47,883 nucleotides of DNA from a virus. The DNA lies in the IMG/VR virus record IMGVR_UViG_3300038558_000015, positions 1 to 47,883 of that record. One strand, 5' to 3'. Below, one piece after another: positions 1,680 through 44,523 of the stretch. The position numbers were made by a program, and so were the translations under genes. Each line of letters begins with the position of its first letter. The first letter of the stretch is position 1. The notes below the pieces were generated by a model. That model saw only the letters and a list, made by a program, of their open reading frames with translations. It was not told the DNA's origin and ran no database searches.

Positions 1680-1680
1680 T

Positions 1681-1894: not shown

Positions 1895-1906
1895 CATTAG
1901 TGGAAT

Positions 1907-1979: not shown

Positions 1980-1981
1980 AC

Positions 1982-2690: not shown

Positions 2691-2774
2691 CGACACGATG
2701 CATCGCTACGTTGGCTCAACAGGCGGGCCTTCCTCCTTCCAAGCCATAATAACTGAATAGTAGCTATGATTACT

Positions 2775-2807
2775 GCCGGCTGGACCAATAACAATCCAGC
2801 CGGCTTT
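2775..2807 (+). terminator. Hairpin at the convergent junction
   Basis: Bases 2775-2784 (GCCGGCTGGA) pair perfectly with 2795-2804 (TCCAGCCGGC) around a 10-base loop, followed by TTT on the plus strand. It lies between the end of plus-strand genes and the end of the long minus-strand operon. A small second hairpin (TAGGC/GCCTA, 2830-2847) lies beside it. The 10-bp GC-rich stem could act in both directions, although the T tract is weak. Otherwise I see nothing in 2691-2850. Confidence 0.65.
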
Positions 2808-2850
2808 CAAATAGTCATCTATTCGCGAGTAGGCAACGTAGCGCCTATAG

Positions 2851-3186: not shown

Positions 3187-3578
3187 ACGAAATAGTCACT
3201 TCCTCTTTCCCAGGCAAGTCTCATCCTGAAACCTATGCCGTCGCCTTCGATAACCCATTTAGGTCGCAAGCGCCAGACCAAAGTGTCATAACCAGCTGGC
3301 CTTCTTGCTTTATTAAGAAGTTCATTGAGATACTTTTCCAGCTTCTCATTGAGATCGGGATCATCAATATCGAGGGTAAGACTCTTCCCTCCATCCTTCA
3401 TGAGTCCATTAAGATGATAAGTGTTATAAGGCGTGCAATTATCAGTCATTGAAGCGGCTGGACCGTCAATAACTTTTATTGCCATCTTCTCCAAGATTGA
3501 AACAAAATTAAAGAGAAGTTGTTCTCGCTGCCCCTCCTTAATTTCCTTCGTGGTTCGGATCGAAAGATAGTTACTCAT
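3183..3578 (-). CDS. Hypothetical protein
   Basis: 131 soluble residues, mixed charge, no transmembrane segment. It sits between a phosphoesterase and a pyrophosphohydrolase with four-base overlaps on both sides, so the three are almost certainly co-translated. The context suggests a nucleotide-related accessory role, but nothing in the sequence shows it. No family is recognised. Confidence 0.7.
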   Translation of the reverse strand: MSNYLSIRTTKEIKEGQREQLLFNFVSILEKMAIKVIDGPAASMTDNCTPYNTYHLNGLMKDGGKSLTLDIDDPDLNEKLEKYLNELLNKARRPAGYDTLVWRLRPKWVIEGDGIGFRMRLAWERGSDYFV

Positions 3579-4387: not shown

Positions 4388-4426
4388 GGAATTCCGTGTG
4401 GGCGGATTTTCAACTAGAAGTCAAGA

Positions 4427-7400: not shown

Positions 7401-10400
7401 CTTGTTTTAAGAAGCTGTTTTGGATTCATTGTTGGGGTTTGATTAATGATTTGTTTGATCGTATCGACTGAGTTAGTTCCAAGGACGCGACTTCCCGGAA
7501 CATTAGCCGGGGTTGGGATAGGTGCCCCAAGAGCGCCTATCTTAGCTGCCGCTCTTTTAGCTTTTGTTTGTTGCCTCAAATAACGCATCATCTTGCGAAC
7601 CTGATTAGGCGTCGCCATCATCATGGGTCTAGGCCCTTGATTCATGGACTTATCAAGTATCCTTTGGCTAATTAGATCGGCCTCGTTTTGAGCCTCAGTT
7701 GCTTTAGCTCCTGAATATGTCCTGCTTCCGACAACCCGAATTGTGCCAGTATCTTTATCTTTGATCAGATATCCAGCATTTTGAGGTGTAGGTTGCCTAA
7801 TGTCTCCAACAACATTATTTAATGGATCAACAAGCCCTGCCGCAGTGAAAATATATGCATGCAAAGGAACTTGTTCAGAGACATAGATATTTCCCTCTCT
7901 GTCAGTTGCGAACCTTACGTCACTATCTTCCGAGAAATCCATTCTAGAAACTTGCGTAGCGGTCGGATTGCGATGGACGTTTACAGGCGTAATAGTTCCT
8001 GTACGAGGATTCATAACTTTGGTAGGGATAATCGTGCTGCTCTTCATTGGAAGATCGGTTATAGACCGTCCATAAGGAGCCATTAGCATTGGGCCAATAT
8101 GATCAGCACCCTTTGTGTTGGACGGGTAGTAACGATCCATTACATCCTTCCAATCGACCTTCCCCTCTGTATTCTTGGGAAGGATGGCGTAGATAGGCCC
8201 GCCTACGAATGTCAGTCTCGTGCCCTCCCCTTCAATGATTGGCTCCATGTGTGGATTAGTTAGTACATGGAATTCATTGTTCATGGTCTTGCCTTCGTAG
8301 ACGCGCGCTGCCTCTTCCGACACGTTCACGTCTGAGACAAGTATCCGTCTCTTATTGGGTGGCAACCCTTGATTGTATTGCTGAACCTTCTTAGCAAGAG
8401 CTTGGTACATTTTTATTCCAAGACGCCTTCCCTGGTATTTTCCGTCGACGATCTTTCCTTGGAATTCTTCGGTTATTGCTGACCCATCTATCCTTACTGC
8501 TCTGTTGTTAGGCTGAACACGCCCTCTAATGAAGCCGATCTCCTTCCCTTCATGCATAAGGGAAACTCTATAATTCTCATCCTCACTTATGTTCCACTTG
8601 AACTCTATCCTGAACTCATTATCAAGCTTTGGAAAATTCTCATCGGCCATTTGAGCTACCCCGAAGAATTCAGAGATAGCTTCTGAATTGGCAATTTCTT
8701 TCTCAGTGTAGGGGAAATTTGCCTTCCTCTCTGCAAGAGTCATGTCCATACGTTCGGAGGCTCTTCTTGCCTCAAGCTCTCCATACAGATTCCAATACCG
8801 CTCGTAAGCAATCTCTTTCTTATACACAAGTTCCCTAAAGAGCTTCATCGTGTCAGGACCTATCTTTTTGCCTATATCTTCGAAGTGATGCATAAGCGCT
8901 CTGAGCGCATCATAGGTCTTGCTATCGCTTTCTGACATAAACTCATTCCACGATCCGCCGCGGGCAAGCATTTCATGATCTTGAATGAGATGTTGTATCT
9001 CATGAACAAGAACCTGCTTGACAGTATATCCGGGTTGTAATGTAGCCGTATTCGGGTTGTAGATGAATTCCTTCCTCGTGTAGTCAGGATTGATATAAAT
9101 AGTGCCCCCGGTAACAAAAGCTCCGCTAAGCGCCCTTGAGGGGAAGACATTAATGTTCTTAAGGTGAGGATATGCCTTATAGAGCTGAGGATGGTCAAGA
9201 ATTTCCCAAAGTTTATAGTAGCCTGCATCTAAGAGACCGCTCGCTCTTCCGAAATCTTCCAGAGCAACCCTGTATGGCAGAAGCTTTCTCTTCGTAGGTT
9301 CAGCTTTGAGTTTCTTAAGATCAATCTTGGCGTATTTGTCGCTTATCTCATAGCGCCACGATCCGTCCCTTCCCCTAAACCATCCGGTTTCCCGGAAGAT
9401 TTCCTCCATAGGAACGCCGCCTTTTTCCATGGCGTCGGCAGCCGCCAGATTGAGGCCGTTAGCCGTCAGCCCCCCCATACTACCAAAGAGAAATGACGCA
9501 CTAGAAGCCCGCCCAGAGGCCGTCTTAGCGCCGCGGGCGAGATTTCGAGCCACACGGGCCGCGTATCCCTCCTGGATCGCCATGAACACGTCCTCAGCAT
9601 TCACAATGAGATCGGAGTCGATCTTAATTCCGACACTGTTCAAGGCGGTGATGAGTCCTTCAATAAAGCGAGATATCCTATAGAGAGCCATCTTGACGGG
9701 ACCAGGAACGCCAACCCGCTTATTACGGGAAAATTCCCGGTATAGTTCGGCCGCCGCCTCTTCTTCTAGGGTTAATTCATCTAGACCTTGATAGGCTGGC
9801 GCGTTCCTTAATTCATCAACCTTTCCTGATTTATGGACGTATCTCTTGATCGCTTCTTGCTCTGTCTTATTGAGAACGCCAAGTTGATTAATTGCGTGAA
9901 ATAGTTCGTGATTGATCCTGTTTGTTGCAACCGCTATCTTCTCTTCTAGAGTCATTCCTGGATCAATCCGGCTATAGGCCAGTGTAACCGTTTTGGCAAA
10001 GTAAGAGGCGTATGCGTCTGCCACGCGGGCATGTTCAAACATACCCTCCCACGTTAGGATGTTCTTGGCTATCCTGACGCCAACATCCTTGAGGCCAATC
10101 TTGTTAAGATGCCCTCTGATAGCCATGGCGATCGTTGCGGCCTCAGCTACTGCCCTCTCTTCAAGGTTCGGCGTTGGAATATTGTTTCCATTCCGCATAA
10201 GCATCGGGCCGCCATCATTGTTCGCGGCAAGACGCTCAATAACAGAATTCATTGCATATTGCTTAAACGCAGCTCCTGTGGTTCCGGGCTTATAGGCCTT
10301 CTCATGTTTATCTATAATCTCAATTCTGTCGTTCTCATTAAGTCTTCTTAAATACGTGGCCGCTCGATATGAAGACCTTTCTAGCATTTCATTTGTATTT

Positions 10401-13400
10401 TCGACATTAATTTCAACTCTTCCCTGAGCTGCTAATAACAAATCGGCCGCTAGATTTTCCAGATGCGCCATTTCAGAATTGAAGTTGCTGATCGCTTCGT
10501 TAGTATCAGCATCGGTAATATCGTTCTGCGAGATGGAACTTTGTGTCTCCATGTAGTCCTTGAAGGTCATAGCCCTCTTGACTTCTGCCTCGCTAGAATC
10601 TGCGGAAAATTTATAGTTGGCCTTTACTTGCTCAGGGACATTCGTTTCATTACTTGGTTTATCGACGACTTCACGAGCCTTGATTATGAAGGCTTTTATC
10701 TGCGCGATCGTTTTGTTATTCAGACCCTTTGTGATTACTTCCGGCCAGAGGTTCGTTATGACCTCTACGTAAGGGGCCTTGCGTTTGAAATTCAACTTAT
10801 TGACAGCTGCCTCAAAAGCCTCTTTACTGTCATAGTTGTCCCGTAGGTGCGCCAGGGCCTCATCGACGTTCTTGATCGGAGCGGCGATCTGTTCTGGCGT
10901 GAGAACAGCTTTAGCAACTTCCTCAACGGTAGGCTCTTCGGCCTTTTCTCTGTATCCAGTTACAGCTTGAAGTCTTGCCTCAGTATCGTCTTCTGATTCT
11001 GGGACAAGTTTTTTCGAAGCCGCTATATCTTCTATCTCTTTAAGGAGAGCTTGCGCTTCGGAATCTTCTGGAAATCTAGGAAGCCATTTTCGAGCATCCC
11101 TAAGAGCCCTTGCGTAAATCTCGTCTTGATCAAAGCTGTCTTCCTTTTTTGTCTTTGCCAATTTAAGAGATTGACGTACTAGGTTTTTGGCTTTTTCTGC
11201 CTTATCGACTTCAGTTACTTTTTTTTTACCTGCCATATCACGAAGAGCGGCTATGGCTTCTTTCTTCGAAGAATAGGCTGTCCTGGTAACGGCCTCTGCG
11301 ACTTGTCTTACAAACGGAGACGGATCATTAACCAGCTCCCTGACTTCTCCAAGGAACTCTACCTCATCACCGATAAGGCTCTTCAGCCTCTCGACTGTAG
11401 CAGTGACATCATCTGTTGGCGGTGCAGTTACAGTATCTGACGCAGCTTCTTCCTGCTTTGTCTCATCCACTCTTCCAGCATAATCGGACTTAATTCTCTC
11501 TATGCCATTCTTCTTTGTGGCTGGTCTTCCAAGGTTCATCATAGAGTTGAGAGTGATGATCTGTTCCTTGGTCAGCTTTCCAAGGTTTTTATCAACCCAA
11601 TTGTTAAATTCCTCAACGCTCGGATTTGTTTTAATGAATTCTTTGACCGCCTTTCGGATTCCGACTGGACCTTCATCAGATATAGGAGTTTCCTTTTTTT
11701 CTACGGTAGGTTCTGGAGCCGTTATACCTCTGAAGGATTCGAACAGGTCCCTTACCTGACCAAGCCCTTTATTTCGTTCAGCAAACTGTCTAACAAACGC
11801 ACTAGGAAAGACGGACTCTGGTATATTAAATCTGGTCGGATCAAGAGAATCTTTGAATGTCCTAATCAAATCCTTTATGCCAATTCCTAAGGTTTTGGCA
11901 TGCCCTCGCATATCCTCAACTATTTTTAGCGCTTGCTCGGCAGAGGCTTCAGCCTTTTGGGCCTCTTGCTCAGACGGTCTAGGTTTAGCTTCGTAGTCGA
12001 AAACTTCCTCTAGTTTTTTTCTTTTTTCCTGTCTTTCTTCTTCATGTATCCTGGAACTGATCGCATAAGCTTCTTCCATAGGAACAAGCTCAAAATTGCC
12101 AGGAAGTACCCGTGCCATCCCCAATTTGCCAAGCGCTTCTACCTTCTTCAAATATTCTTGAGGCGTTTCAGGTTGAAGATTTTTCCCCATTAAGTTGCCC
12201 TTGTGAGCAAAGGCATATGCTTGATCTAAATCATGGATTCCTTCGCCAAGGGCATGGGCTTGTGAATCATAGAAGTCTTTGTCTGGATCGGGACTGTAAT
12301 AGCCATTGGGTCCACCCTCAGTATTGAAGGCAGACTTAACCTCATTCCAGACTTCCAGAAGGTTCTCAGGAACTGGAACCCTTACGCGCTCTTCTCTACC
12401 TCTTCGGCTCGGTCGGGCCATTGCTTTTGATTGACGGAGTGTTCGCACAGGCGCTGGAGCTTCCGCTTCTGGCTCTGGAGTCGGCGCAGCGCCCTCAGGA
12501 TATTTTTCTCTGATAGCTGCAAGTGCCGTATCCTTACGTTGTCGCGCAGCCTTAGAAGCTCCAACAAGTCGTGCTGCGATCTTCGTAACCGGGGCAGGGG
12601 CATCTTCTAGTTCCTTGTATCCTTCTGTACGCGTTTCGGTATTTTCAATTTTCGCAAGTATTTTTGCTGCGGTTTCACCGTGTTGAGTACGGGCTTCCTC
12701 ACGTTTGGCTTGAACCTGTCTTTGTTCTTCACTGACCTCTCCCCTCCGTCGTTTCTCGGCGGCTTCTTCCCTCTTGATATCTGCCGCTCGTTCGGTTTCC
12801 AATCCAAGATAAGTTTCGTAGAGACCGCCAAGAAGCTGTTCTCTATTAAGAATATTTAAGTTTTCTGAAACCTCATCTCTAATAGCTTCTTGTCTTTCTT
12901 CGCTTACTCCTTCCGGGTATTGAATACTATCGAGAATCGCTTCCTTAAGTTCATCGTCGCTGGCATCCTGCCATTCCCTCAAGAAGTCTTCTTCGCTGAC
13001 CGCAGTGACTTCCTCTGCCGCGACTTCACGATCTTCAATCTCTCTGGCTTCGCGTTCTGGTCCGCGAATATCCTCAGGCGCAATCTCTCCTGGTTTTGTC
13101 GGTTGGAGATTCTTAGCTGCCCGAATGATATCGTTGATCGATGCTCTTGCCCCCAGGATAGGTCTGTCCCTGGTCTTTTGGCCGTAGAGATTAACAAGCT
13201 GCCTTATTTTATTAGCAGCTGGAGTTGTATCCTTTTTGTAATAACGTTCAAGCTCAGCTTCTTGAACAAGACCCGCGATCTGATTGAGAATGTTCTGATA
13301 TTCTTGCGGAATCGGCTCGGCTTTGACGGGTTCAATCTTACGTCCAGTTAATTGCTGAGCTGTGCGAGGCGGGACAAATGTGGGCTCGGGTTTACCGGCC

Positions 13401-15394
13401 TCGACTTCCTCAGCCGTTTTTCGGCCCGGCCGTCGCTTTATATCTATGAGTTCATTATAACTTCTACGTAATGGATCAGTCGTGGGGATTGCGTCTCTGA
13501 GCCGTTTCAGAGTATCCAGGTCCGTTCGCGACGCGAGTTCTACATATTCCTCATCTGAAGCGTCTCTAGAATGAAGATCAGAAATCTCTTGACTAAGCTC
13601 TTGATCGGTCGGACCTTCCTTTTCCTTTACTGGAGGTTCTTCTGGTTCTGGCGCAGCTTCGGCCGTATCACTAACAGGTTCCGCTTCCTCCTCTACAGGC
13701 TGCTCGGCCGCCTCTGATTCTTCTACTTCCGTTGCGTAACGGACATAGGCTCCGGCCAAAGCAAAAGCTGCTTCTGGATCATTATATGATTGCGCTTCAT
13801 TAATTATTTCTTCTGCGATATTACTTAGACCGTTTTCTTCAAGGATCGAAGATAGTGCAATTACGTTCTGTGGAAGCGAGCTGCTTCTAACCATCTGAAC
13901 GGCAGATTGAATATCGCTTATTTGCTTTTTTGTTAATTCTACTGGATTTTCTTCGAAGTAACCCTCATACACTGAAGGGGTTAACTTAAACTCTTCCTCG
14001 CCATCCTCAAGCTCATCATCAATATCTTCTTGAGTCGCCGGCTCTTCATCATCTCTAAGTGTGCCTAGTCTATTCTCAGCATAGGCATTTCGTATTTGTT
14101 CGTCTGTATATCCATCTCTTTGCAGTCCTTCAGCAACGTCATTAATGTCCTGTGGCTGCTCAGCCTCCCCCGTTTCTTTCTCGATCGGCTCCGGCTGTAT
14201 CTGTGTTGGCTGTTGAATGGACGGCGGCGCTCCAGGAGCGGGCGTCGGTTCCGCAATAGCCCCGGTAGGCGAGATAATGGTTTGTCCAGACTCATCATAT
14301 AACTGTTCTTCTCTTCTCCTTAACTTTTCAATATTTTCTGCAAGTTGCTGTTCTTCTTGTTGTGGTTGTGTAAGACTTTCAATACCACCAAATCCAGCGC
14401 CACCTAACGTTCCTGCCGCAGCGCCCATAATGGCTGCCTCTGGTACGCCAGCTAACAATTGTTGTTCTGGATTAATTTGCGCTTGGGTAATATTTTGAGT
14501 AAGTTGTTCAACAACAGACTGAGGCAACTCTTCTACAATGCCCTCTTGTAGCCCTCTCTTGACAATGTTTCTAAATAGACCCTTAGCGGCTGTGCCGGCT
14601 GCCCCAGGGAGGCCAAGAGAACCGATAAGACCAACTATTGCGCCAGAACCGCCTGCCATTTGAGGGGCTAATCTCTGTGATACTAATTTTATAGCCGCAG
14701 CATAATCACCATTTGTTTCGGCAAGAGCCTGATTTCCTAAAGGAGAGTTTATAAATTCTTCTTGATTCTCTATTGCGTAGTTGGAGATTGCATCTTCTAT
14801 AGAACTTAATGTTTGAGCGCCTGAAATAAGACCCTCTAATCCTCCAGCCACTCCGGCAGACCTAGCTACCATGGCCGGACCCATTGTAGCGGCAACGGCT
14901 GGAGCGGATTCTGCTAATGTTCCAACTACAGTTTGAGGAGTGACGCCCGTCAGTTCAATAGGGCCTAGTTGAGTCCTCATTCTTTGCTGAGCCATATATT
15001 CAGGGCTCAGCGTCTCAAGTTCTTCTTCTGCTACTTGTCTTCCGTATTCTCTAGCGCCTCTACCAAAGCCTCTAATTGCCTCTGTGAGAGGAGATTTTAG
15101 AGACGGCAATGGCAGATCAACGCCAGCTGTAACGGCTCTCCACGGCCTTTCCGAGAAGCCTGCTACCAGCTCAGCGAGACCGCCGCCAGTTTCAGGAACA
15201 AGCCTTTTAGCGCCAGCGGCAAGAAGATCAGCAATATCTTCTCCAGAAGGAGCTAGTCCAAATGGAGTTATTGCTGGAGTTCCTACATTTATATCTTCAC
15301 CCTGTTGGCGGCGAACTTCTTGAGCAGCAACTTCTACAGGAGTGTCATCTTCAAATTCGTATTCTTTTCCTTGGCGACGAATAATATAGGTCAC
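4427..15394 (-). CDS. Giant polyvalent virion protein (3655 aa)
   Basis: A single uninterrupted frame fills almost 23 percent of the window. Residues 1-35 (RQGKEYEFEDDTP region) match a short N-terminal module seen on large phage proteins. Gly/Ala hydrophobic stretches follow at about 155-200, 250-270 and 320-340. Residues about 350-1500 are Glu/Lys-rich and probably coiled coil or disordered. HELFH at 1829-1833 and HEIQH at 2131-2135 are two separate HExxH zincin motifs. Residues about 1969-2018 (FRETGWFRGRDGSWRYEI) resemble the LPD23 polyvalent domain. About 2260-2400 resembles a GNAT acetyltransferase (GRRLGIKMYQALAKK). The last 600 residues resemble LPD38, with NPPTHVRQIMQN near 3110 and a hydrophobic helix near 3325-3350. 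Such proteins are thought to be packaged and ejected with DNA to counter host defences; that role here is inference. Confidence 0.88.
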   Translation of the reverse strand: MTYIIRRQGKEYEFEDDTPVEVAAQEVRRQQGEDINVGTPAITPFGLAPSGEDIADLLAAGAKRLVPETGGGLAELVAGFSERPWRAVTAGVDLPLPSLKSPLTEAIRGFGRGAREYGRQVAEEELETLSPEYMAQQRMRTQLGPIELTGVTPQTVVGTLAESAPAVAATMGPAMVARSAGVAGGLEGLISGAQTLSSIEDAISNYAIENQEEFINSPLGNQALAETNGDYAAAIKLVSQRLAPQMAGGSGAIVGLIGSLGLPGAAGTAAKGLFRNIVKRGLQEGIVEELPQSVVEQLTQNITQAQINPEQQLLAGVPEAAIMGAAAGTLGGAGFGGIESLTQPQQEEQQLAENIEKLRRREEQLYDESGQTIISPTGAIAEPTPAPGAPPSIQQPTQIQPEPIEKETGEAEQPQDINDVAEGLQRDGYTDEQIRNAYAENRLGTLRDDEEPATQEDIDDELEDGEEEFKLTPSVYEGYFEENPVELTKKQISDIQSAVQMVRSSSLPQNVIALSSILEENGLSNIAEEIINEAQSYNDPEAAFALAGAYVRYATEVEESEAAEQPVEEEAEPVSDTAEAAPEPEEPPVKEKEGPTDQELSQEISDLHSRDASDEEYVELASRTDLDTLKRLRDAIPTTDPLRRSYNELIDIKRRPGRKTAEEVEAGKPEPTFVPPRTAQQLTGRKIEPVKAEPIPQEYQNILNQIAGLVQEAELERYYKKDTTPAANKIRQLVNLYGQKTRDRPILGARASINDIIRAAKNLQPTKPGEIAPEDIRGPEREAREIEDREVAAEEVTAVSEEDFLREWQDASDDELKEAILDSIQYPEGVSEERQEAIRDEVSENLNILNREQLLGGLYETYLGLETERAADIKREEAAEKRRRGEVSEEQRQVQAKREEARTQHGETAAKILAKIENTETRTEGYKELEDAPAPVTKIAARLVGASKAARQRKDTALAAIREKYPEGAAPTPEPEAEAPAPVRTLRQSKAMARPSRRGREERVRVPVPENLLEVWNEVKSAFNTEGGPNGYYSPDPDKDFYDSQAHALGEGIHDLDQAYAFAHKGNLMGKNLQPETPQEYLKKVEALGKLGMARVLPGNFELVPMEEAYAISSRIHEEERQEKRKKLEEVFDYEAKPRPSEQEAQKAEASAEQALKIVEDMRGHAKTLGIGIKDLIRTFKDSLDPTRFNIPESVFPSAFVRQFAERNKGLGQVRDLFESFRGITAPEPTVEKKETPISDEGPVGIRKAVKEFIKTNPSVEEFNNWVDKNLGKLTKEQIITLNSMMNLGRPATKKNGIERIKSDYAGRVDETKQEEAASDTVTAPPTDDVTATVERLKSLIGDEVEFLGEVRELVNDPSPFVRQVAEAVTRTAYSSKKEAIAALRDMAGKKKVTEVDKAEKAKNLVRQSLKLAKTKKEDSFDQDEIYARALRDARKWLPRFPEDSEAQALLKEIEDIAASKKLVPESEDDTEARLQAVTGYREKAEEPTVEEVAKAVLTPEQIAAPIKNVDEALAHLRDNYDSKEAFEAAVNKLNFKRKAPYVEVITNLWPEVITKGLNNKTIAQIKAFIIKAREVVDKPSNETNVPEQVKANYKFSADSSEAEVKRAMTFKDYMETQSSISQNDITDADTNEAISNFNSEMAHLENLAADLLLAAQGRVEINVENTNEMLERSSYRAATYLRRLNENDRIEIIDKHEKAYKPGTTGAAFKQYAMNSVIERLAANNDGGPMLMRNGNNIPTPNLEERAVAEAATIAMAIRGHLNKIGLKDVGVRIAKNILTWEGMFEHARVADAYASYFAKTVTLAYSRIDPGMTLEEKIAVATNRINHELFHAINQLGVLNKTEQEAIKRYVHKSGKVDELRNAPAYQGLDELTLEEEAAAELYREFSRNKRVGVPGPVKMALYRISRFIEGLITALNSVGIKIDSDLIVNAEDVFMAIQEGYAARVARNLARGAKTASGRASSASFLFGSMGGLTANGLNLAAADAMEKGGVPMEEIFRETGWFRGRDGSWRYEISDKYAKIDLKKLKAEPTKRKLLPYRVALEDFGRASGLLDAGYYKLWEILDHPQLYKAYPHLKNINVFPSRALSGAFVTGGTIYINPDYTRKEFIYNPNTATLQPGYTVKQVLVHEIQHLIQDHEMLARGGSWNEFMSESDSKTYDALRALMHHFEDIGKKIGPDTMKLFRELVYKKEIAYERYWNLYGELEARRASERMDMTLAERKANFPYTEKEIANSEAISEFFGVAQMADENFPKLDNEFRIEFKWNISEDENYRVSLMHEGKEIGFIRGRVQPNNRAVRIDGSAITEEFQGKIVDGKYQGRRLGIKMYQALAKKVQQYNQGLPPNKRRILVSDVNVSEEAARVYEGKTMNNEFHVLTNPHMEPIIEGEGTRLTFVGGPIYAILPKNTEGKVDWKDVMDRYYPSNTKGADHIGPMLMAPYGRSITDLPMKSSTIIPTKVMNPRTGTITPVNVHRNPTATQVSRMDFSEDSDVRFATDREGNIYVSEQVPLHAYIFTAAGLVDPLNNVVGDIRQPTPQNAGYLIKDKDTGTIRVVGSRTYSGAKATEAQNEADLISQRILDKSMNQGPRPMMMATPNQVRKMMRYLRQQTKAKRAAAKIGALGAPIPTPANVPGSRVLGTNSVDTIKQIINQTPTMNPKQLLKTSKWTRWYFTLNDLPYQNLYLVSRGRTGGNINEFEEFAQKFIHFMNTASQKDRDEFNYYMTHKNAAPLGISNPEIRAAAIEAKDLFMRLGKKFQQTGVLDTAQYSRYMGMYLPRMLMEYVQRELTQQGLKASRQSYTKQRLGDSIGQEIWNASNVVDEAMNVEILRRDVQPIWDTANITQKDEFIEFLRNPKKQLSSVTHNGLRNLAARARSELERVKQKIDASGFIKPKKKNGTFVARYGDNYMQNQFRVALNNKASMGRVYEQDATLGLITDPFFLTYAGIIRQGRDISVIRFMEEIAYMADVSGINNMGWVIPHQFVKYHGRTMTFDALGNELRRLSASRETLENPFLRKVNQELIDEIETIFKNANVKVGVGTSFENIVQFDKDTYRKLPTTYAYGDISGLIVHKAIYNDIVGMAGAASVNQPEIEKLVDKATGRFMRGFKRIVTTLNPPTHVRQIMQNIMTLYLGGVGSSYTLGADTTVWAARALIDSKKNSAMWQLFKELGGIQGTFTEAEIRRTLDALSELKIRELKRKNTSLSGLETAYKEVERIITKAGGKAADLYNFYDTMARYTMFFFHTKHSKMAPGDAIIESFEWIPDYTLVPPAVRLLRNTIFPFITWQYKLFPKMVDLGTRGLAKIRDGFMQINPKILASGVSDITRLSVPIMLYSGLLWSVVALLMGLDEDEAEALRASMSKELRRNVGVIPLPIRDSHGNFVLTDLGVYLPWTPMAQAGRNMFEGGHQDILPNLVMKLPFDLGAGGPFIDFIVAYTTGKDRFTGYDLWPEGASNTQKLAGFLSYAFNYYMPPIMRGMVDPLFQQLDLLAGGYERPQFGSSGFMGRFLDKTFGDGVTTSGKYVEDYSALAARALGFNTWALDPVDQTERNARRMERDVDEMKRQLGYSKAEMNRQIAAIRADSDRSEAEKEQEIQSIREFHERLKDTYREKMKVGQRRVREYRASTEPIRSFILREKGSQFSREITPAEPQPMESR

Positions 15395-32334: not shown

Positions 32335-33307
32335 CTTCACTTTCTCCATGAACTCTTACATATTCTTTTGCGTATTCTTTTGGATCAATTTTATTCTTTT
32401 CCAAGAACTTCACTGTCTGAGCGCTAATCTGAATAGAACGCGGTTTCTTGACCGTATTCCTGCTAACAGGAGCGACATTGCTTTTCCCTCCGCCCTTTCC
32501 AGCTGACTTCTTAAATTTCTCTGGAAATCTGGTTTTCATCTCAGCATCAATTCTTTTGTAATATTCATCTGATCCAGGATGAACTCCCTCATTACGCTCA
32601 ATATTATTAGCAAACAGAAGGGCATAGTTCGTCATATTGGGATCAACATCCTTACTTGCTCTAGGATCGCCGAACCAAGGATTATTTTTAGCCCAAGCCA
32701 CAGCCTTAGGGTCAGGTTGCCTTACGTTTGTTTTAGTTTCTCTTTTTTCTTCCTTATCGTCTGTTGCTATTTTGTTCTGAGTCTCAGAAGCTTGCTCAAG
32801 GAAGGCGTCAACTTTAACAAGTTCAGCAGTTAGCTTCCCGATGGCGGCATTGGCCTTAGCTAGAGCCTTTCCATCTCCCTCATCGTAGGCGCTAGCGACC
32901 GCCTCCTGAGCTGCCTCAAGCTCGGCCTCAATGCGCTTCTTATCATTTTCGAGGGCTTTCTTTTTAGAGTCAGAAACGCCGGCTCTGAGCTTTTGGTTCT
33001 CCTCGATAGCGTCTTTAGCTATCTTGGCAACCTTCATCATTTCCTCGTCGCGATCAAACCTTGCGCGGTCCTGAGCTGCTAGCTTTTCTTCTAATTCCTT
33101 AATCTTAGCTTTAGCTCTACGAGAGTATTTAGCCATCTCTTCTTCAAGAGATTCATTTTCGCCATCATCGTCTATTTCATCTTCTTCGTCGTTCGTAAAC
33201 TTACCAGTATCTGTATCAATTTCGAACATTTCCTCATCAATCTCAGTAACTTCTGGATCGATATCATCCTCAAAGAAAGTCTTATTTCCTCTCTGAACTC
33301 CTGCCAT
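32327..33307 (-). CDS. Scaffold-type assembly protein
   Basis: 326 residues, very rich in Glu, Asp and Lys. An acidic N-terminus (DPEVTEIDEEMFEIDTDTG) is followed by a long coiled coil at about 55-185. A more globular part contains AWAKNNPWFGDPRA, and a basic C-terminal helical tail (TVKFLEKNKIDPKEYAKEY) follows. Coiled coil, basic end and location directly before the capsid genes are the usual marks of phage scaffold proteins. Confidence 0.75.
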   Translation of the reverse strand: MAGVQRGNKTFFEDDIDPEVTEIDEEMFEIDTDTGKFTNDEEDEIDDDGENESLEEEMAKYSRRAKAKIKELEEKLAAQDRARFDRDEEMMKVAKIAKDAIEENQKLRAGVSDSKKKALENDKKRIEAELEAAQEAVASAYDEGDGKALAKANAAIGKLTAELVKVDAFLEQASETQNKIATDDKEEKRETKTNVRQPDPKAVAWAKNNPWFGDPRASKDVDPNMTNYALLFANNIERNEGVHPGSDEYYKRIDAEMKTRFPEKFKKSAGKGGGKSNVAPVSRNTVKKPRSIQISAQTVKFLEKNKIDPKEYAKEYVRVHGESEDE

Positions 33308-38349: not shown

Positions 38350-38423
38350 AGCGGGGTAGATTAACGGCAGATCAGTAGGCTCATGCCCTACGCGTGTAGG
38401 TTCAACTCCTTCCCCCGCTCCCA
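38350..38423 (+). tRNA. tRNA-Met (CAU)
   Basis: The acceptor stem AGCGGGG pairs perfectly with CCCCGCT; the discriminator is C and CCA is encoded. The D arm is GATT/GATC. The anticodon arm GTAGG-CTCATGC-CCTAC gives CAU. The T arm GTAGG-TTCAACT-CCTTC has one mismatch. A normal A-T first pair argues against an initiator. CAU could instead be a lysidine-modified isoleucine tRNA. The C discriminator is unusual. Confidence 0.88.
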
Positions 38424-38449
38424 TCTCTTCTTGACAATGGATTATCAAA

Positions 38450-38601
38450 TGGCTAGAAAAAAGCCCGAAGAAAGCCGCGACGATTACGTAAACCGTAAGG
38501 TCGCCCACATGAATCGGATGGGCATTCCGGCGGTAATTTACCGTGGCGCAGCCTGTCCAGTTTGGCTGAAAGAGCAGCTAGAGAAGGACGAAAACAAGTG
38601 A
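38450..38601 (+). CDS. Small hypothetical protein
   Basis: About 50 residues from ATG 38450 (ARKKPEESRDDYVNRK follows); ATG 38438 would add four residues. The frame is open through tRNA-Met upstream, but that part is not coding. Basic, with AHMNRMGIPAVIYRG in the middle. It overlaps the GTG of the VWA gene by four bases, which supports real translation. No clear Shine-Dalgarno site is visible. Confidence 0.55.
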
Positions 38602-39353
38602 ACCAAGAAGACCCCGTTATGAAGACGGCCGGCTGGCTAGTCCCACAAGGGCAGTTGGCCGTCTATATGCTTCTGGACCGCAGTGGCTCGATGGCGCATC
38701 GTTGGGAAGAGACAATTAGCTCTCTCAATGCCTATGTCAGAGAACTTGCCGAAGGTGGTCAGGGCGATGCAGACATTACGATTGCTCTGTTTGACGAACA
38801 TTGCGGTCTCCAGTTTGAGCTTGTCAGAGACAAGACGAAAGCCAAGGACTTCGTTCCTATAGACTTTCAACTCACGAGACCGAGAGGTTCAACGCCGCTC
38901 TATGATGCTTGCGGTAAGATTTATTCTCTTGCTGCCGAGAGGAATGAGCCAAAGACCGTTATGGTCATTCTCACTGATGGGCACGAAAACGCCTCCAAAG
39001 AAATGACCAAGAGTTTGGTCAAGAAGCTTATTGAAGACTTCAAGGCTAAGGTCTGGCAGACTGTGTTCCTTGGCGTTGACTTTGACGCCTATGGAGAGGC
39101 TGGCGCAATTGGTGTTCGCGCCTCCAATACCCTGAACACGCAATCAGCTTATGCTGGTCAAACGATGCGGTCTATGGCCTCCCGCACTGTAGCTTATGCT
39201 GGAGCGGCGACTCAAGACTTCGCAGAACAGGCCATGTGCTTCGATGTTGATGATACCGATCTTGGAAGTGGAAAACTTTCGATCGAAGAATGGTCAAAGC
39301 GCTACGAACAGAAGATGAGGACTCAGAAAAAGGATGACAAAACCGGGCAATAG
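38598..39353 (+). CDS. VWA-domain protein with intact MIDAS
   Basis: The GTG at 38598 overlaps the previous stop (GTGA) and has AAGGA nine bases upstream, giving 251 residues. A longer frame from 38562 is rejected. The metal-ion-dependent adhesion site is complete: D27-x-S29-x-S31 in LLDRSGSM, T99 in RGSTPLYDA and D127 in ILTDGHEN. No signal peptide or membrane helix is present, so it is a cytoplasmic VWA protein, perhaps binding a phage or host partner through a metal bridge. No AAA partner gene is nearby. Confidence 0.87.
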   Translation: MNQEDPVMKTAGWLVPQGQLAVYMLLDRSGSMAHRWEETISSLNAYVRELAEGGQGDADITIALFDEHCGLQFELVRDKTKAKDFVPIDFQLTRPRGSTPLYDACGKIYSLAAERNEPKTVMVILTDGHENASKEMTKSLVKKLIEDFKAKVWQTVFLGVDFDAYGEAGAIGVRASNTLNTQSAYAGQTMRSMASRTVAYAGAATQDFAEQAMCFDVDDTDLGSGKLSIEEWSKRYEQKMRTQKKDDKTGQ

Positions 39354-39600
39354 TCCCGGTAACTTTTGGACGGATGAAAAGTTAACGCTAACTGTAAATT
39401 TCTATTCTCAAGGGATTCCGGTCAAGACGATCCGGGAGATTATCGGAGCAAAAACCGATAATCTAATAGTTTGTAAAATGTGGAGCCTCGGCGTAATATG
39501 GGGCGGCGGTATACGCCGCCGCGATAAAGAGCCTGAGCCAATCTATAAGCCCAAGTTCTTTACCGGCGACCGAGATGAAAGGAAGAGCATGCGTGTGTGA
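39334..39600 (+). CDS. GcrA-like DNA-binding protein
   Basis: 88 residues. The segment FWTDEKLTLTVNFYSQGIPV followed by IREIIGAKTDNLIVCKMWSLG has the W-T-D/E start, helix spacing and final short helix of the N-terminal helix-turn-helix of GcrA, the alphaproteobacterial cell-cycle regulator. The rest is basic and short. If correct, it may redirect host transcription at methylated sites. It overlaps the VWA gene by 20 bases, and its last ten bases form the 5' acceptor strand of the tRNA-like element. Confidence 0.6.
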   Translation: MTKPGNSPGNFWTDEKLTLTVNFYSQGIPVKTIREIIGAKTDNLIVCKMWSLGVIWGGGIRRRDKEPEPIYKPKFFTGDRDERKSMRV

Positions 39601-39750
39601 GCCAGTAGGGACCGGGGACGCCCGGCGACTCCTGGGGTGGCTCTATTGTCAAGAAGTCCGGGCTGCGTCCATAGTGAAATACCTATAGCAGGCAGTGATC
39701 ACACCGGATGCCACTTGACTTTTCTGGTTCGATTCCGGACACACGCTCCA
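39591..39750 (+). ncRNA. 160-nt tRNA-like RNA with enlarged arms
   Basis: Ends are fully tRNA-like: 39591-39597 GCGTGTG pairs with 39740-39746 CACACGC, then T and an encoded CCA. The T arm is TCTGG-TTCGATT-CCGGA at 39723-39739, with exact spacing. Inside, a 6-bp stem 39599-39604/39638-39643 carries a nested CCGGG-GACG-CCCGG hairpin at 39612-39625. A second 6-bp stem, 39648-39653/39714-39719, extends by TCCGG/CCGGA (39657-39661/39704-39708), CTGC/GCAG and ATAG/CTAT around loop TGAAATAC. No ordinary anticodon loop is visible. It resembles a cloverleaf with swollen D and anticodon arms. An intron-bearing tRNA is an alternative. Confidence 0.72.
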
Positions 39751-39771
39751 TTCCTTATTTAGGAGAAAGAA

Positions 39772-40191
39772 ATGACCAAGAAAATAACCGTAGTGATTCC
39801 AAAGCGCACGGCTGAAAACACTGTCGATGCAAAGGAACCACTGACAGTTAATATAACTGCTAGCGATATCCATGGCGCAACTCTTCTCAATCCAGAAAGT
39901 TGCGCCGCCGCCCGATCCGTTAAGAGAACGCTCCATTGCCAGCGCGTGGAGATTTATCGTTCCAGAACTTATGTCTTCAATGGAAGAGGAAAATGGGTCA
40001 GATATAAAACCCCACGATCTCTGAGAGAAGAAACGATTGTTCTGGACAGAGGCGGAAAATTCCAATCCGGCGAATACACATTCGATCAGCCGGAAGTCAG
40101 GACCTATAGGCCGGCGACTAAGGCCACAAAAACTACCAACAAAAAGTCTAAAGTCAGACGAATTTTAGCTGACGTTAGGCCAAGAGCCTAA
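39772..40191 (+). CDS. Hypothetical basic protein
   Basis: 139 residues with a strong AGGAG site before ATG, located 22 bases after the CCA end of the tRNA-like RNA. The middle contains RVEIYRSRTYVFNGRGKWVR, and the tail is Lys/Arg/Thr-rich (KATKTTNKKSKVRRI), suggesting nucleic-acid contact. No family is recognised. The stop is three bases before tRNA-Arg. Confidence 0.72.
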   Translation: MTKKITVVIPKRTAENTVDAKEPLTVNITASDIHGATLLNPESCAAARSVKRTLHCQRVEIYRSRTYVFNGRGKWVRYKTPRSLREETIVLDRGGKFQSGEYTFDQPEVRTYRPATKATKTTNKKSKVRRILADVRPRA

Positions 40192-40194
40192 AGC

Positions 40195-40269
40195 GTCCCC
40201 TTAGCTCAATGGATAGAGCAGGAACCTTCTAAGTTCAAGATACGGGTTCGATTCCTGTAGGGGACGCCA
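40195..40269 (+). tRNA. tRNA-Arg (UCU)
   Basis: The acceptor stem GTCCCCT pairs perfectly with AGGGGAC; G discriminator and encoded CCA follow. The D arm is GCTC/GAGC. The anticodon loop CTTCTAA gives UCU, for AGA codons. The T arm around TTCGATT is normal. The CCA is followed by AC and then the ATG of the next gene, exactly as at tRNA-Trp. Confidence 0.93.
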
Positions 40270-40271
40270 AC

Positions 40272-40505
40272 ATGGGCATAAGGATAAAACCAAAAGACCT
40301 TAGAGAAGGAGATGTAATAGTCTCCAATAAAGACAGTATGTGCATGACCAAGGGAGAAAAATTCACAGTCTACAAGATTAACGACAAACCTTTTATCGTA
40401 TGCTTCTATAGATGGGTTCATAAGCAATGGTGTTTAGAATCTCATCCTATCGGAAAAAGGCTTGATGATGAAGGATTTCTCGCTAACTTCTCGTGGCTAA
40501 CGTGA
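40272..40505 (+). CDS. Small hypothetical protein starting two bases after tRNA-Arg
   Basis: 77 residues. The start codon is only two bases from the encoded tRNA CCA, so the mature mRNA after tRNA release would be nearly leaderless. The pattern GIRIKPKDLREGDVIVSN and EKFTVYKINDKPFIVCF suggests a small beta-barrel. No catalytic motif is seen. Unknown function. Confidence 0.68.
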   Translation: MGIRIKPKDLREGDVIVSNKDSMCMTKGEKFTVYKINDKPFIVCFYRWVHKQWCLESHPIGKRLDDEGFLANFSWLT

Positions 40506-40714
40506 ATAAACGTGTCTGCATAGACGGAACAACATCAGCAGGCTCTATATTAATAGACGGTAAGTTGTTCTGTTCTCTTCATCCAACTATAGAGGAACAA
40601 TTAAACTCCAAGCCGGCTAGCAACGAAGCTGTTCGGGAAATGAAAATGCTACATTGCGTAGCAGACGCATTAGAAAAGTTCCTGGAGGAAGAGAGTAATG
40701 CAAGTCGTACATAA
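40502..40714 (+). CDS. Small hypothetical protein
   Basis: About 70 residues from GTG 40502 (NKRVCIDGTTSAGSILIDGK follows); GTG 40493 adds three residues. LFCSLHP and LHCVADALE contribute two of its Cys residues. It overlaps both neighbours. No strong ribosome site. No family is known to me. Confidence 0.6.
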   Translation: MNKRVCIDGTTSAGSILIDGKLFCSLHPTIEEQLNSKPASNEAVREMKMLHCVADALEKFLEEESNASRT

Positions 40715-40988
40715 GTATAAAGTCGCGCCGGATGGGTTCAATCACGGCATGTTCAAGATTCCTATGCCTGAGCACGCCGAGATCGTCCATGTGGACATAA
40801 TCGATGGTCATCTTTGCTTCTGGGCAGAGATTACCAAAGAGAATAAGATGGAAGATAAACCCTTCCGTGTCTTCATGACTGGACAAGACGTAACGGATGG
40901 CGACGAATCCGAATGGCTAATCTACCATTTGAGAACGGTAGTTAATCATGATACGGGCGTTGTCATGCACGTCTACGAATACGTATGA
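40698..40988 (+). CDS. Small conserved-type phage protein
   Basis: 96 residues with GGAGG and GAGAG upstream of ATG. The order of strands (VVHKYKVAP, then IPMPEHAEIVHVDIIDGHLC, FWAEI, FRVFMTGQDV) matches small phage proteins of unknown function that I recall, beginning with a strand and an MPxxAEI turn. It ends ten bases before the tRNA cluster. Confidence 0.68.
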   Translation: MQVVHKYKVAPDGFNHGMFKIPMPEHAEIVHVDIIDGHLCFWAEITKENKMEDKPFRVFMTGQDVTDGDESEWLIYHLRTVVNHDTGVVMHVYEYV

Positions 40989-40998
40989 GATAATGGTT

Positions 40999-41104
40999 GG
41001 TTCCGTAGCTCAGTAGTAGAGCGGCGATTAATAATCGCGTCAACACGTAGGATCGGCCGGTTTTATGTGTTATGCCCTCGGTGCAATTCCAGGCGGAACC
41101 ACCA
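40999..41104 (+). tRNA. Atypical tRNA-like gene with long variable arm
   Basis: The acceptor stem GGTTCCG pairs with CGGAACC, followed by A and an encoded CCA. The D arm is GCTC-AGTAGTA-GAGC. The anticodon-like hairpin GCGA-TTAATAA-TCGC would give AAU, an unusual anticodon in bacteria. Then come about 37 bases containing an 8-bp stem AACACGTA/TATGTGTT. The T arm CTCGG-TGCAATT-CCAGG has an A-C mismatch and TGC in place of TTC. Total 106 nt. It may be a degenerate tRNA, an intron-bearing tRNA or a relative of the 39591 element. Confidence 0.55.
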
Positions 41105-41108
41105 ATAT

Positions 41109-41182
41109 AGGCCGGTAGCTCAGCTGGTTAGAGCGCACGACTGATAATCGTGAGGTGGAGGGTTCGAATCCCTCTCGGCCTA
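41109..41182 (+). tRNA. tRNA-Ile (GAU), CCA not encoded
   Basis: The acceptor stem AGGCCGG pairs with TCGGCCT (one G-T), with discriminator A. The anticodon arm CACGA-CTGATAA-TCGTG gives GAU. The T arm is GAGGG-TTCGAAT-CCCTC. The next tRNA begins at the very next base, so CCA must be added after processing. Confidence 0.92.
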
Positions 41183-41259
41183 GAGCTAGTAGCCCAACGG
41201 CAGAGGCAGCGGTGTTAAGCTCCGTTCAGTGATGGGTTCGAATCCCTCCTAGCTCACCA
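41183..41259 (+). tRNA. tRNA, probably Leu (UAA); isotype uncertain
   Basis: The acceptor stem GAGCTAG pairs perfectly with CTAGCTC, then A and an encoded CCA. The anticodon hairpin GCGGT-GTTAAGC-TCCGT gives UAA by position, but has a T-T mismatch next to the loop. Reading the loop differently would give GUU. The T stem has only three good pairs around TTCGAAT. The variable region is short for a leucine tRNA. Confidence 0.65.
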
Positions 41260-41263
41260 TAAT

Positions 41264-41349
41264 CGACGGGTGGATGAGTGGATGAAATCGCCAGACTGTA
41301 AATCTGGCCCTTAAAAAGCACGCTGGTTCGAATCCAGCCCCGTCGACCA
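41264..41349 (+). tRNA. tRNA-Tyr (GUA)
   Basis: The acceptor stem CGACGGG pairs with CCCGTCG, then A and an encoded CCA. The anticodon arm CCAGA-CTGTAAA-TCTGG gives GUA. A long variable arm of about 15 bases, as expected for bacterial tyrosine tRNA, precedes the T arm GCTGG-TTCGAAT-CCAGC. Confidence 0.93.
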
Positions 41350-41350
41350 T

Positions 41351-41422
41351 AGACCCGTAGCTTAACGGTAGAGCGCGCGCCTTATAAGCGTTAGATGCAG
41401 GGTTCGATTCCCGCCGGGTCTA
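41351..41422 (+). tRNA. tRNA-Ile (UAU), CCA not encoded
   Basis: The acceptor stem AGACCCG pairs with CGGGTCT, with discriminator A followed by CTTG. The loop CTTATAA gives UAU, which reads the rare isoleucine codon AUA. The T stem has three good pairs. It starts one base after the CCA of tRNA-Tyr. A TTG that extends the RNR frame lies two bases after its end. Confidence 0.82.
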
Positions 41423-41459
41423 CTTGCGTTACCCTAGAAATCAGAGATATTCTGGTCGA

Positions 41460-42485
41460 ATGACTCCCGGCCTTTTGATCCCATCTAAAACGTATAAGCC
41501 CTTTAGATATCCTTGGGCATTTGAATTCTGGCAACGCCAACAGCAAATTCACTGGCTCCCTGAAGAAGTTCCGCTTGGGGATGACGTTAATGATTGGAAC
41601 AATAATATAACACAAGAGGAGAAGAACTTACTTACTCAGATATTTCGTTTCTTTACACAATCTGACGTTGAAGTCAACGATAACTATATGGAACGATATT
41701 CCCGTGTGTTCGTGCCAACAGAGATTAAGATGATGCTCGCGTCATTCTCAAACATGGAGACCGTTCATATAGCAGCCTATGCTCATCTCTTAGAAACAAT
41801 CGGCATGCCAGAAGCTGAATTCGCAGCCTTCCTCGATTATGAAGAGATGCGAGCCAAACATGAATACATGAACACTTTCACGATAAAAAACCGCACAGAG
41901 ATCGTGAAAACTGTCGCTATGTTTGGAGCCTTTACAGAAGGATTGCAACTCTTTGCCAGCTTTGCCATGCTTCTAAACTTCCCTCGGTTAAACAAGATGA
42001 AAGGAATGGGCCAGATCGTAACTTGGAGTGTCAGAGATGAAAGCCTTCATTGCGAAGGCATGATCAAACTTTATCACACATTCGTGCGTGAGATTGGCGG
42101 CATCGACGACAAGACCAAAGATGAGATTGTTCAAATGTGTCTCAAGGTGGTCGAGATGGAAGATCGCTTCATTGACCTAGCATTCAGGTTGGGCGCGGTC
42201 CAAGGTATGACCCCGCTTGATATTAAGAACTACATCCGTTATATTGCTGACTGGCGCTTGCGCCAGCTCGAATTGCCGCCGATCTTTGGAATCAAAGAGC
42301 ATCCCCTGCCCTGGCTCGCGTTGATGCTCAACGGCGTGGAGCATGCCAACTTCTTTGAAGCGCGTGCTACCGAATATTCCAAGGGGGCGACAAAAGGCGA
42401 ATGGCACGGCGAGAATGGCGTGTGGGCCAACTTCGATAGTTTCATGAAGAAAAGGACAGATTTCAGTGTATCGAGTGCAGCCTGA
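41460..42485 (+). CDS. nrdB: Class I ribonucleotide reductase beta subunit
   Basis: From ATG 41460 the product has 341 residues; a TTG at 41424 would add 12. The core motifs are LIPSKTYKPFRYPWAFEFW, LLTQIFRFFTQSDVEVNDNY, SFSNMETVHIAAYAHLLETI (Glu and His iron ligands plus the expected radical Tyr) and SVRDESLHCEG (Glu and His). This is the short R2 type that makes the radical for the alpha subunit, supplying dNTPs. No alpha gene lies in the window, so it lies outside or comes from the host. It is followed by an overlapping Fic gene. Confidence 0.93.
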   Translation: MTPGLLIPSKTYKPFRYPWAFEFWQRQQQIHWLPEEVPLGDDVNDWNNNITQEEKNLLTQIFRFFTQSDVEVNDNYMERYSRVFVPTEIKMMLASFSNMETVHIAAYAHLLETIGMPEAEFAAFLDYEEMRAKHEYMNTFTIKNRTEIVKTVAMFGAFTEGLQLFASFAMLLNFPRLNKMKGMGQIVTWSVRDESLHCEGMIKLYHTFVREIGGIDDKTKDEIVQMCLKVVEMEDRFIDLAFRLGAVQGMTPLDIKNYIRYIADWRLRQLELPPIFGIKEHPLPWLALMLNGVEHANFFEARATEYSKGATKGEWHGENGVWANFDSFMKKRTDFSVSSAA

Positions 42486-42969
42486 CAAGAAGGTCTGGAC
42501 GCCTGAATATTTCAGCGCCGAAGACTTTGTTCGTGAATCTAACGCGATTGAAAATATCTATCGTGATCCAACTCCAGAGGAAATAGCAGAGCATGAGCGC
42601 TTCCAGCGCTTAGAGAAAGTTACCTTATCGGACATGGAGCAATTCGTTTCTATCTACGCTCCAAATAATGTCCTGCGTCGACAGAGGGGATGGGACGTTC
42701 GAATCGGGGGCTACATAGCCCCGAGAGGCGGCCCCGAGATCGAGACGCGTCTTCAATCTATCCTGGATAGGTGCGTTAGTCGCAATCCATATGCCTACGA
42801 TAATGCATGGACAATCCACGTGGATTATGAAAAACTCCATCCCTTCACGGATGGCAATGGTCGCTCCGGGCGAGCCCTCTGGCTATGGACAATGAATAAT
42901 ATGGCTCCGCTTGGGTTCCTACGTCATTTCTATTATCAAACTCTCAGCAAGCAAAGTTCGATCGGATGA
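42466..42969 (+). CDS. Fic-family enzyme with built-in inhibitory helix
   Basis: 167 residues from GTG 42466, with AAGGA upstream, overlapping the RNR gene by 20 bases. The Fic core motif HPFTDGNGRSGR is complete at 125-136, including catalytic His125 and the phosphate-binding loop. SNAIEN at 25-30 fits the (S/T)xxxE(G/N) inhibitory helix of autoinhibited Fic proteins, with Glu29 the likely ATP-blocking residue. The usual activity is AMP transfer to Thr, Ser or Tyr of a protein. The host target is unknown. No separate antitoxin gene is seen. Confidence 0.87.
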   Translation: MYRVQPDKKVWTPEYFSAEDFVRESNAIENIYRDPTPEEIAEHERFQRLEKVTLSDMEQFVSIYAPNNVLRRQRGWDVRIGGYIAPRGGPEIETRLQSILDRCVSRNPYAYDNAWTIHVDYEKLHPFTDGNGRSGRALWLWTMNNMAPLGFLRHFYYQTLSKQSSIG

Positions 42970-43689: not shown

Positions 43690-44063
43690 TTCCAGTACTA
43701 GTCTGTGGCGGGAGGCGATACGATAATCGGAATCTCGTATTCAAAACCCTCTACAAGGTACATGAGGATCATGGAATTTTCTATCTTATCAATGGATGGG
43801 CTAGGGGAGCAGACGAGCTAGCACGGGATTTTTGTTGGCAGGCAAAGATTCCGTGCTGGAACTTTCCGGCTGATTGGGACAAAGAGGGGCTTAAAGCTGG
43901 TTTTCTAAGAAACATTAAGATGTTGAATTTAGGAAAACCTAAGTTAATAATAGCATTTCCAGGTGGACCCGGCACAGCTGACATGATACGACGTGGCAAG
44001 CAAGCTGGGGTAACAGTACAGGAAATCAATGACCCAACAGCCATACAAAATAATTTTTCTTGA
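43686..44063 (+). CDS. SLOG-superfamily protein (DUF2493/YspA type)
   Basis: 125 residues. VLVCGGRRYDN at the start, INGWARGADELARDF in the middle and AFPGGPGTADMIRRG near the end are the nucleotide-binding glycine motifs of the SLOG Rossmann-like family. Relatives bind or cleave nucleotide-derived signals such as ADP-ribose or N-glycosides. Phages often carry a DUF2493 member; its role is not established. It overlaps the next gene by 35 bases. Confidence 0.85.
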   Translation: MIPVLVCGGRRYDNRNLVFKTLYKVHEDHGIFYLINGWARGADELARDFCWQAKIPCWNFPADWDKEGLKAGFLRNIKMLNLGKPKLIIAFPGGPGTADMIRRGKQAGVTVQEINDPTAIQNNFS

Positions 44064-44523
44064 CGTTGACGGCGTTCTCAACCGGACCAGCGGTCCTAGT
44101 TTCCTGACAGTTCCTGGCCTCATGATGGCTCCGCCATTCATTGTCGAGCGGAACATTGTTGAGTACTTCGTAGAGACAATTAGTAAATATCCAGACATTC
44201 GTGTTGTCGTGTCATCAACGTGGCGATTTCATTGTGACAGTCCAGAAATGTTTAGCGATGCTACAGGCGTCCCTCATAGACTCCTGCATCCTGACTGGCG
44301 TCTCCAGACCCTAGGAGGAGAGGATCGTCCAGAAGATGTAAAGCAGTGGCTTACACTTCATCCCGAAATCACTGAATACGTGATAATTGACGATACTAAA
44401 TACGCCTTCACACTCGTACTTCAAAGGGAGCCTATTTTTGTGAGAACGAGAGAGGATCGGGGTTTAACTCAACAAAATCTACATCAGGCCCTTACAATCC
44501 TGGGCCTAGACCCACGGAAGTAG
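44029..44523 (+). CDS. HAD phosphatase-like protein (RNA-repair-associated type)
   Basis: 164 residues. FLDVDGVLNRT gives the HAD nucleophile Asp12 and Asp14. VVVSSTWRFH supplies motif II and YVIIDDTKYAF the acidic motif IV. The SSTWR form is what I recall from the HAD domain found in Swiss-Army-Knife RNA repair proteins and in stand-alone phage copies. It probably removes a phosphate, possibly from RNA ends. Located just downstream of the tRNA cluster operon. The RNA role is inferred from family naming only. Confidence 0.82.
   Translation: MTQQPYKIIFLDVDGVLNRTSGPSFLTVPGLMMAPPFIVERNIVEYFVETISKYPDIRVVVSSTWRFHCDSPEMFSDATGVPHRLLHPDWRLQTLGGEDRPEDVKQWLTLHPEITEYVIIDDTKYAFTLVLQREPIFVRTREDRGLTQQNLHQALTILGLDPRK

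Follow-up and report, generated by a model that had tools for sequence, protein, structure and literature searches.

The stretch of DNA analysed here (hereafter the window) is a virus contig of 47,883 bases. The terminase and portal of this phage are distantly related (approximately 30-44% identity) to those of the Pelagibacter phages HTVC023P and HTVC027P, phage DSL-LC04 and Planktothrix phage Pag-Yong1, and the phage is here termed podovirus-like. ARAGORN and Rfam delineated a compact cluster of small genes and tRNAs on the plus strand at 38350-41423. The tRNAs of the cluster are, by start position, Met (38350), Arg (40195), Ile (41108), a Leu-type tRNA (41183), Tyr (41264) and Ile (41351), and an odd tRNA-like gene is found at 40999-41104. 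Within this cluster lies a 160-nt RNA gene at 39591-39750 (+), which is cloverleaf-like in its sequence and predicted fold.

An ORF of 88 aa (39334-39600, +) in the ORF list is located directly upstream and runs into the RNA: its final codons and stop codon cover the first 10 nt. Searches of Pfam and PHROG gave no match for this ORF, which may resemble the GcrA-type regulators. On the other side, an ORF with an AGGAG Shine-Dalgarno-like site begins 22 nt downstream of the RNA. A promoter search near the RNA found none above chance. Because the ORF overlaps the 5' end of the RNA, the two may be transcribed together and the RNA then freed by processing; the result of the promoter search would make both steps likely.

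Irregularities are also seen in several further tRNA genes of the phage. The gene at 40999-41104 (+) is likewise oversized and tRNA-like (fold z of -4.1). Its acceptor stem is an exact 7 bp (GGTTCCG/CGGAACC), its D arm is normal and CCA is encoded, but the variable region contains a 13-bp hairpin and the anticodon hairpin is irregular. The gene was missed by ARAGORN and by the default whole-window Rfam scan, and scored 36.7 bits in a smaller Rfam scan. The gene at 41183-41259 (+) was called Leu(TAA), but it is without a long variable arm and its anticodon stem is irregular; the call is doubtful. Outside the cluster, 1740-1813 (+) is likely to be a tRNA-Asn (anticodon GTT, G73, CCA) with an irregular D arm, below the Rfam cut-off and missed by ARAGORN.

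Structure of the RNA at 39591-39750

All elements of the RNA lie on the plus strand. The acceptor stem is formed by GCGTGTG (39591-39597) and CACACGC (39740-39746); all seven pairs are Watson-Crick, with pair probabilities of 0.99-1.0 in the absence of flanks. The next nucleotide (39598) is U8-like and also opens the TGA stop codon of the 88-aa ORF. Arm 1, in the position of the D arm (39599-39643, 45 nt), is composed of the basal stem GAGCCA/TGGCTC (39599-39604/39638-39643) and the inner stems GGGA/TCCT and CCGGG/CCCGG, closed by GACG. Its fold energy is -24.0 kcal/mol (z of -1.7), with pair probabilities of 0.89-1.0. The junction TATT (39644-39647) leads to arm 2 in the position of the anticodon arm (39648-39719, 72 nt). 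In arm 2, the basal stem GTCAAG/CTTGAC (39648-39653/39714-39719) is followed by GTCCGG/CCGGAT, GCTGC/GCAGT and, at the tip, an ATAG/CTAT hairpin whose loop is 8 nt long. The fold energy is -23.4 kcal/mol (z of -2.2), and the pair probabilities of the three main stems are 0.94-0.98. The T arm, TCTGG-TTCGATT-CCGGA (39723-39739), has 5 bp including one G-U pair and a canonical T loop. The 3' strand of the acceptor stem is followed by the discriminator U73 (T at 39747) and an encoded CCA (39748-39750).

The ends of the RNA are those of a canonical tRNA (RF00005), namely a 7-bp acceptor stem, a 5-bp T arm with a TTCRA loop, and NCCA. The core has neither a D arm of usual size nor a 7-nt anticodon loop on a 5-bp stem. 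The first-pass annotation had placed an exact acceptor stem, T arm, discriminator and CCA, and two basal stems with further stems nested in each, at these positions; the coordinates of the ends agree exactly with the sequence, and the stems were found as described. Its remark that the usual anticodon loop is absent was also confirmed, arm 2 ending in the 8-nt loop. Three further departures from tRNA did not appear in that annotation: the spacer between the acceptor stem and arm 1 is one nucleotide (U8) instead of two, the spacer between the two arms is four nucleotides (TATT) instead of one, and the canonical D loop is missing.

The predicted fold is a four-way junction. The minimum free energy was -66.5 kcal/mol (163 nt folded), compared with a mean of -55.0 kcal/mol for shuffled sequences, and 3 of the 200 shuffles folded equally well. 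The resulting z-score of -2.4 is graded as moderate. Pair probabilities of approximately 0.9 or more were predicted for the acceptor stem, the basal stems, the main inner stems and pairs 2-5 of the T stem, whether 0, 50 or 100 nt of flank was included. The outermost pair of the T stem is weak (approximately 0.2), one of its bases being able to pair with U8 instead. In first-order Markov random sequences with the dinucleotide make-up of the window, the combination of acceptor stem, T arm and CCA over a span of 95-300 nt is expected 0.0025 times per window.

Oversized tRNA-like RNAs in other phages

A precedent for this architecture is found in phage T4. The T4 species 1 RNA, rnaC, is a 139-nt RNA (NC_000866, 70908-71046) encoded inside the T4 tRNA cluster, and its sequence and fold show a canonical T arm, acceptor-like strands and two enlarged arms. 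It is a late RNA that is visible on Northern blots and has no assigned function (PMC9697503, PMC3014915), and of all these RNAs it alone has been documented as a discrete, stable, processed RNA in infected cells (PMC9697503). To judge by the citation in PMC11143913, the "transfer RNA-like molecules" of the T-even phages were catalogued in 1978 by Moen et al. A paper on SegB amplification in T6 makes no mention of rnaC or rnaD (PMC13096335). When T4 rnaD was folded, no tRNA-like ends were seen.

DNA similar to rnaC was found in 720 phage records, in 692 of them over most of the rnaC length, and relatives occur in Tequatrovirus, Mosigvirus, Gaprivervirus, Winklervirus and Karamvirus. An alignment of the rnaC sequences of T4, N2, VR7, C120, Kc304, SonariX and EnC15 showed two-sided changes in 14 of the 46 pairs, a number matched by none of 500 shuffles. 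The covarying pairs comprise one acceptor pair (A-U to G-C), pairs in both arms and pairs in the T stem. Pieces of rnaC are mistaken by ARAGORN for tRNA-Met or tRNA-Lys. In rnaC relatives it is the 3' part (L126:454-548, L128:359-452) that tRNA finders call tRNA-Met, as the SonariX record also has it, or tRNA-Lys; these calls are annotation artefacts.

A survey of tRNA-rich phages with an acceptor/T-arm descriptor yielded two further cases, both unannotated. One is a 123-nt RNA in the T5-like Pantoea phage AAS21 (MK770119, 77137-77259; L148:23827-23949), and an RNA of the same type lies at about 32880-33003 in T5 (AY587007), again unannotated. DNA similar to the AAS21 RNA was found in 471 phage records, mostly T5-like, of which only two match at least 80% of the query and some perhaps match the T-arm part alone. 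On nine sequences of this T5-like RNA, 18 of the 35 pairs showed two-sided changes, and none of 500 shuffles reached 18. All seven acceptor pairs covary, as do pairs in the D, anticodon and T stems. The other case is a 121-nt RNA in the Erwinia jumbo phages pEa_SNUABM_9 and Asesino (L149:10083-10203, L159:310-430), in which seven compensatory pairs were found between just two sequences of 77% identity. In both the T5-like and the Erwinia RNAs, the D arm is normal and the anticodon arm is enlarged. Rfam scans of six records gave, beyond tRNA and chance-level matches, no family covering either RNA as a whole. The fold z-scores of single T5-like and Erwinia sequences were between -0.4 and -1.0. 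Since these RNAs covary and are still not separated from shuffles, a z-score from a single sequence counts for little in either direction.

Three other phage groups show the same plan with covariation, and in many of the records examined rnaC, the T5-like RNA and the Erwinia RNA adjoin genes annotated as tRNAs. The window RNA shares with rnaC the location in a tRNA cluster, the canonical T arm, acceptor-like ends, two enlarged arms, a four-way junction, U73 and the absence of a usual anticodon loop. The acceptor stem of rnaC, however, has a conserved double U-U mismatch, whereas that of the window RNA is a perfect 7 bp; rnaC ends in UACA without an encoded CCA, which the window RNA has; and the first arm is the longer one in rnaC, the second in the window RNA. 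The T5-like RNA resembles the window RNA in its acceptor stem, T arm, enlarged anticodon arm, location in a tRNA cluster and escape from ARAGORN and Rfam, but its D arm is of normal size and only some members encode CCA. The Erwinia RNA shares the acceptor stem, T arm, encoded CCA, enlarged anticodon arm and tRNA cluster, but has a normal D arm and an unrelated inner sequence. What sets the window RNA apart is that its D and anticodon arms are both enlarged while its acceptor stem is perfect and CCA is encoded. The plant-virus 3' tRNA-like structures are a further example of tRNA mimicry by viral RNA (PMC5723415). Those structures form the 3' ends of RNA genomes and are often pseudoknotted, whereas the window RNA is a gene inside a DNA phage.

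Searches for homologues of the window RNA

The rnaC covariance model (R1) found no match in the window at E <= 10, and the T5-like model (R3) matched ordinary tRNAs of the window and not 39591-39750. Homology of the window RNA with rnaC and with the T5-like RNA was rejected on these results. Since the window RNA matches neither model, its membership of the class rests on architecture.

In viral contigs, neither the exact T-arm/acceptor pattern nor a gapped acceptor and T-arm pattern found a homologue, and all seven matches of an inner junction pattern were without tRNA-like ends. In one genome each for 84,980 species, the gapped pattern gave seven matches, mostly neighbouring ordinary tRNA genes and none of them the window RNA. 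A covariance model built on the sequence of the window RNA alone (R2) matched nothing elsewhere but ordinary tRNAs, apart from weak matches of a generic tRNA type. No relatives were found for the neighbouring VWA, 139-aa and DUF7352 proteins, and blastn against phages gave short weak matches only. The loci of relatives of the terminase and the ribonucleotide reductase (RNR) are nearly tRNA-free (6 tRNAs in 1.17 Mb) and contain no oversized tRNA-like gene with CCA. Thus no homologue was found across the pattern, model, protein and blastn searches, in collections that may lack very near relatives. The inner stems of the window RNA are therefore without covariation support of their own.

Interpretation of the window RNA

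The normal acceptor and T arms could be explained by a tRNA with introns, which would be spliced to a normal tRNA; the first-pass annotation had named such a model as the finding that would overturn its reading. ARAGORN, intron modes included, made no call over 39591-39750. Deletion of one segment gave 5 tRNA calls from 1,235 variants (0-258 with shuffled interiors), and deletion of two segments gave 3,806 calls from 32,831 variants (191-9,813 with shuffled interiors). Since calls appeared at the rate of shuffled interiors, no splice model stands out. The inserted sequence is also far below the size of a group I intron, and to our knowledge bulge-helix-bulge splicing is not expected in a bacterial host. 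An intron-containing tRNA was therefore rejected and seems very improbable. Ends like those of tRNA joined to other domains would also fit a tmRNA of reduced size, or one of the other known RNAs of this type, such as YrlA. No Rfam family, however, overlapped 39591-39750 even at E <= 10, no tag reading frame was seen, and the 160 nt of the RNA are too few, being under half the length of tmRNA. The tmRNA was rejected on these grounds, and we give this explanation as a whole hardly any credence. The same results uphold the earlier statement that the RNA is neither a tmRNA nor an ordinary tRNA.

Decay deserves more weight, although we consider it unlikely. The RNA might be a decaying or insertion-damaged phage tRNA gene, in which the D and anticodon loops took insertions and the acceptor and T arms have not yet decayed. 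The failure to find a homologue, the irregular tRNA genes of the same phage (41183-41259, 1740-1813 and 40999-41104) and the pseudo-tRNAs listed in the T5 record are consistent with this explanation. On the other hand, two separate insertions would be needed, the acceptor stem, T arm and CCA are exact, the inner arms are nested and strongly paired, and compensatory changes keep similar arms in T4-like and T5-like phages. It is also conceivable, though we think it rather improbable, that the RNA is a cis processing signal (tRNA punctuation), marking RNase P and 3' nuclease cuts in a polycistronic transcript and protecting mRNA ends, with no role in trans. The overlap of its first 10 nt with the 3' end of the upstream ORF, the AGGAG-preceded ORF 22 nt downstream and the lack of a promoter above chance would fit such a signal. 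However, a plain tRNA would serve equally, large arms of this kind are not needed for RNase P, and T4 rnaC is a discrete small RNA.

We favour, with a probability of roughly 0.7, the reading that the window RNA is a stable, processed, non-decoding tRNA-like RNA of the rnaC architectural class, which engages tRNA-binding proteins in trans as a mimic or decoy. The analysis shows the predicted fold, the exact ends, the location in a tRNA cluster and the covarying plan of the three other phage groups. Transcription, processing, stability and charging of the RNA are plausible inferences; a decoy role, and the target of such a decoy, are speculative. Weighing against this reading are the failure to find a homologue, the lack of a match to the rnaC and T5-like models, the moderate fold z-score, the variation of discriminator and acceptor sequences across the class and the promoter search. 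The earlier interpretation is thus supported in part: its exclusion of tRNA and tmRNA stands and no intron model rescues a tRNA, but T4 rnaC and the other phage precedents had been overlooked. The window RNA is best called a member of a known but poorly understood kind, and the recurrence of the plan with covariation in unrelated phages is the more interesting result.

The following course of events may be proposed for this non-decoding RNA. It would probably be co-transcribed with the neighbouring genes and tRNAs. Host RNase P would probably cut its 5' end, and its 3' end would be matured at the encoded CCA, because the RNA offers the acceptor/T-arm helix that those enzymes recognise. It would then accumulate as a stable RNA presenting a normal acceptor/T-arm helix, and would be unable to decode because large rigid arms replace the D and anticodon arms. 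It would most likely act in trans by engaging a tRNA-binding protein, whether the CCA enzyme, EF-Tu, GlyRS or another synthetase, or a defence nuclease that targets tRNAs.

With regard to charging, the determinants of bacterial glycine acceptors are U73, G1-C72, C2-G71 and G3-C70 (PMC9976931). The acceptor of the window RNA carries all four of them, but C35/C36 are absent. Charging by GlyRS is therefore possible but unproven. The discriminator is U, A or G depending on the member of the class, and acceptor sequences vary too; this variation makes a shared charging function, with one common amino acid, unlikely. With regard to defence, phage tRNAs can oppose systems that cleave tRNA: PARIS AriB cuts the anticodon stem, and cells are rescued from it by the tRNAs of T5 (PMC12409363). 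An RNA shaped like a tRNA but lacking the normal anticodon arm would be a natural candidate for a decoy or inhibitor.

T4-like, T5-like and giant Erwinia phages carry oversized tRNA-like RNAs, mostly unannotated, among their clustered tRNA genes, and the window RNA seems to be one example of a class that has been neglected. The occurrence of the same plan in unrelated phages would turn a T4 curiosity into a testable class, of which the T5-like RNA is unannotated in the records examined. A broader proposal, which we put forward tentatively and regard as doubtful, is that unrelated lineages (the T4-like, T5-like and Erwinia jumbo phages and the phage of the window) independently built or kept oversized, non-decoding tRNA mimics within their tRNA clusters as a general device of counter-defence or translation control that tRNA finders overlook. 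If their partners are tRNA nucleases, synthetases or EF-Tu, such RNAs would constitute an RNA-based tool for these purposes that standard tRNA finders miss.

Two protein genes near the tRNA cluster are also worth recording. The gene at 44029-44523 (+) encodes a HAD domain of the "Swiss Army Knife RNA repair" family, and that at 42466-42969 (+) encodes a Fic/Doc-family protein. A setting of RNA repair or translation conflict is possible for these neighbours. Elsewhere in the window, a single ORF of 3,655 aa occupies 4427-15394 on the minus strand, which is unusually long for a 48-kb phage.
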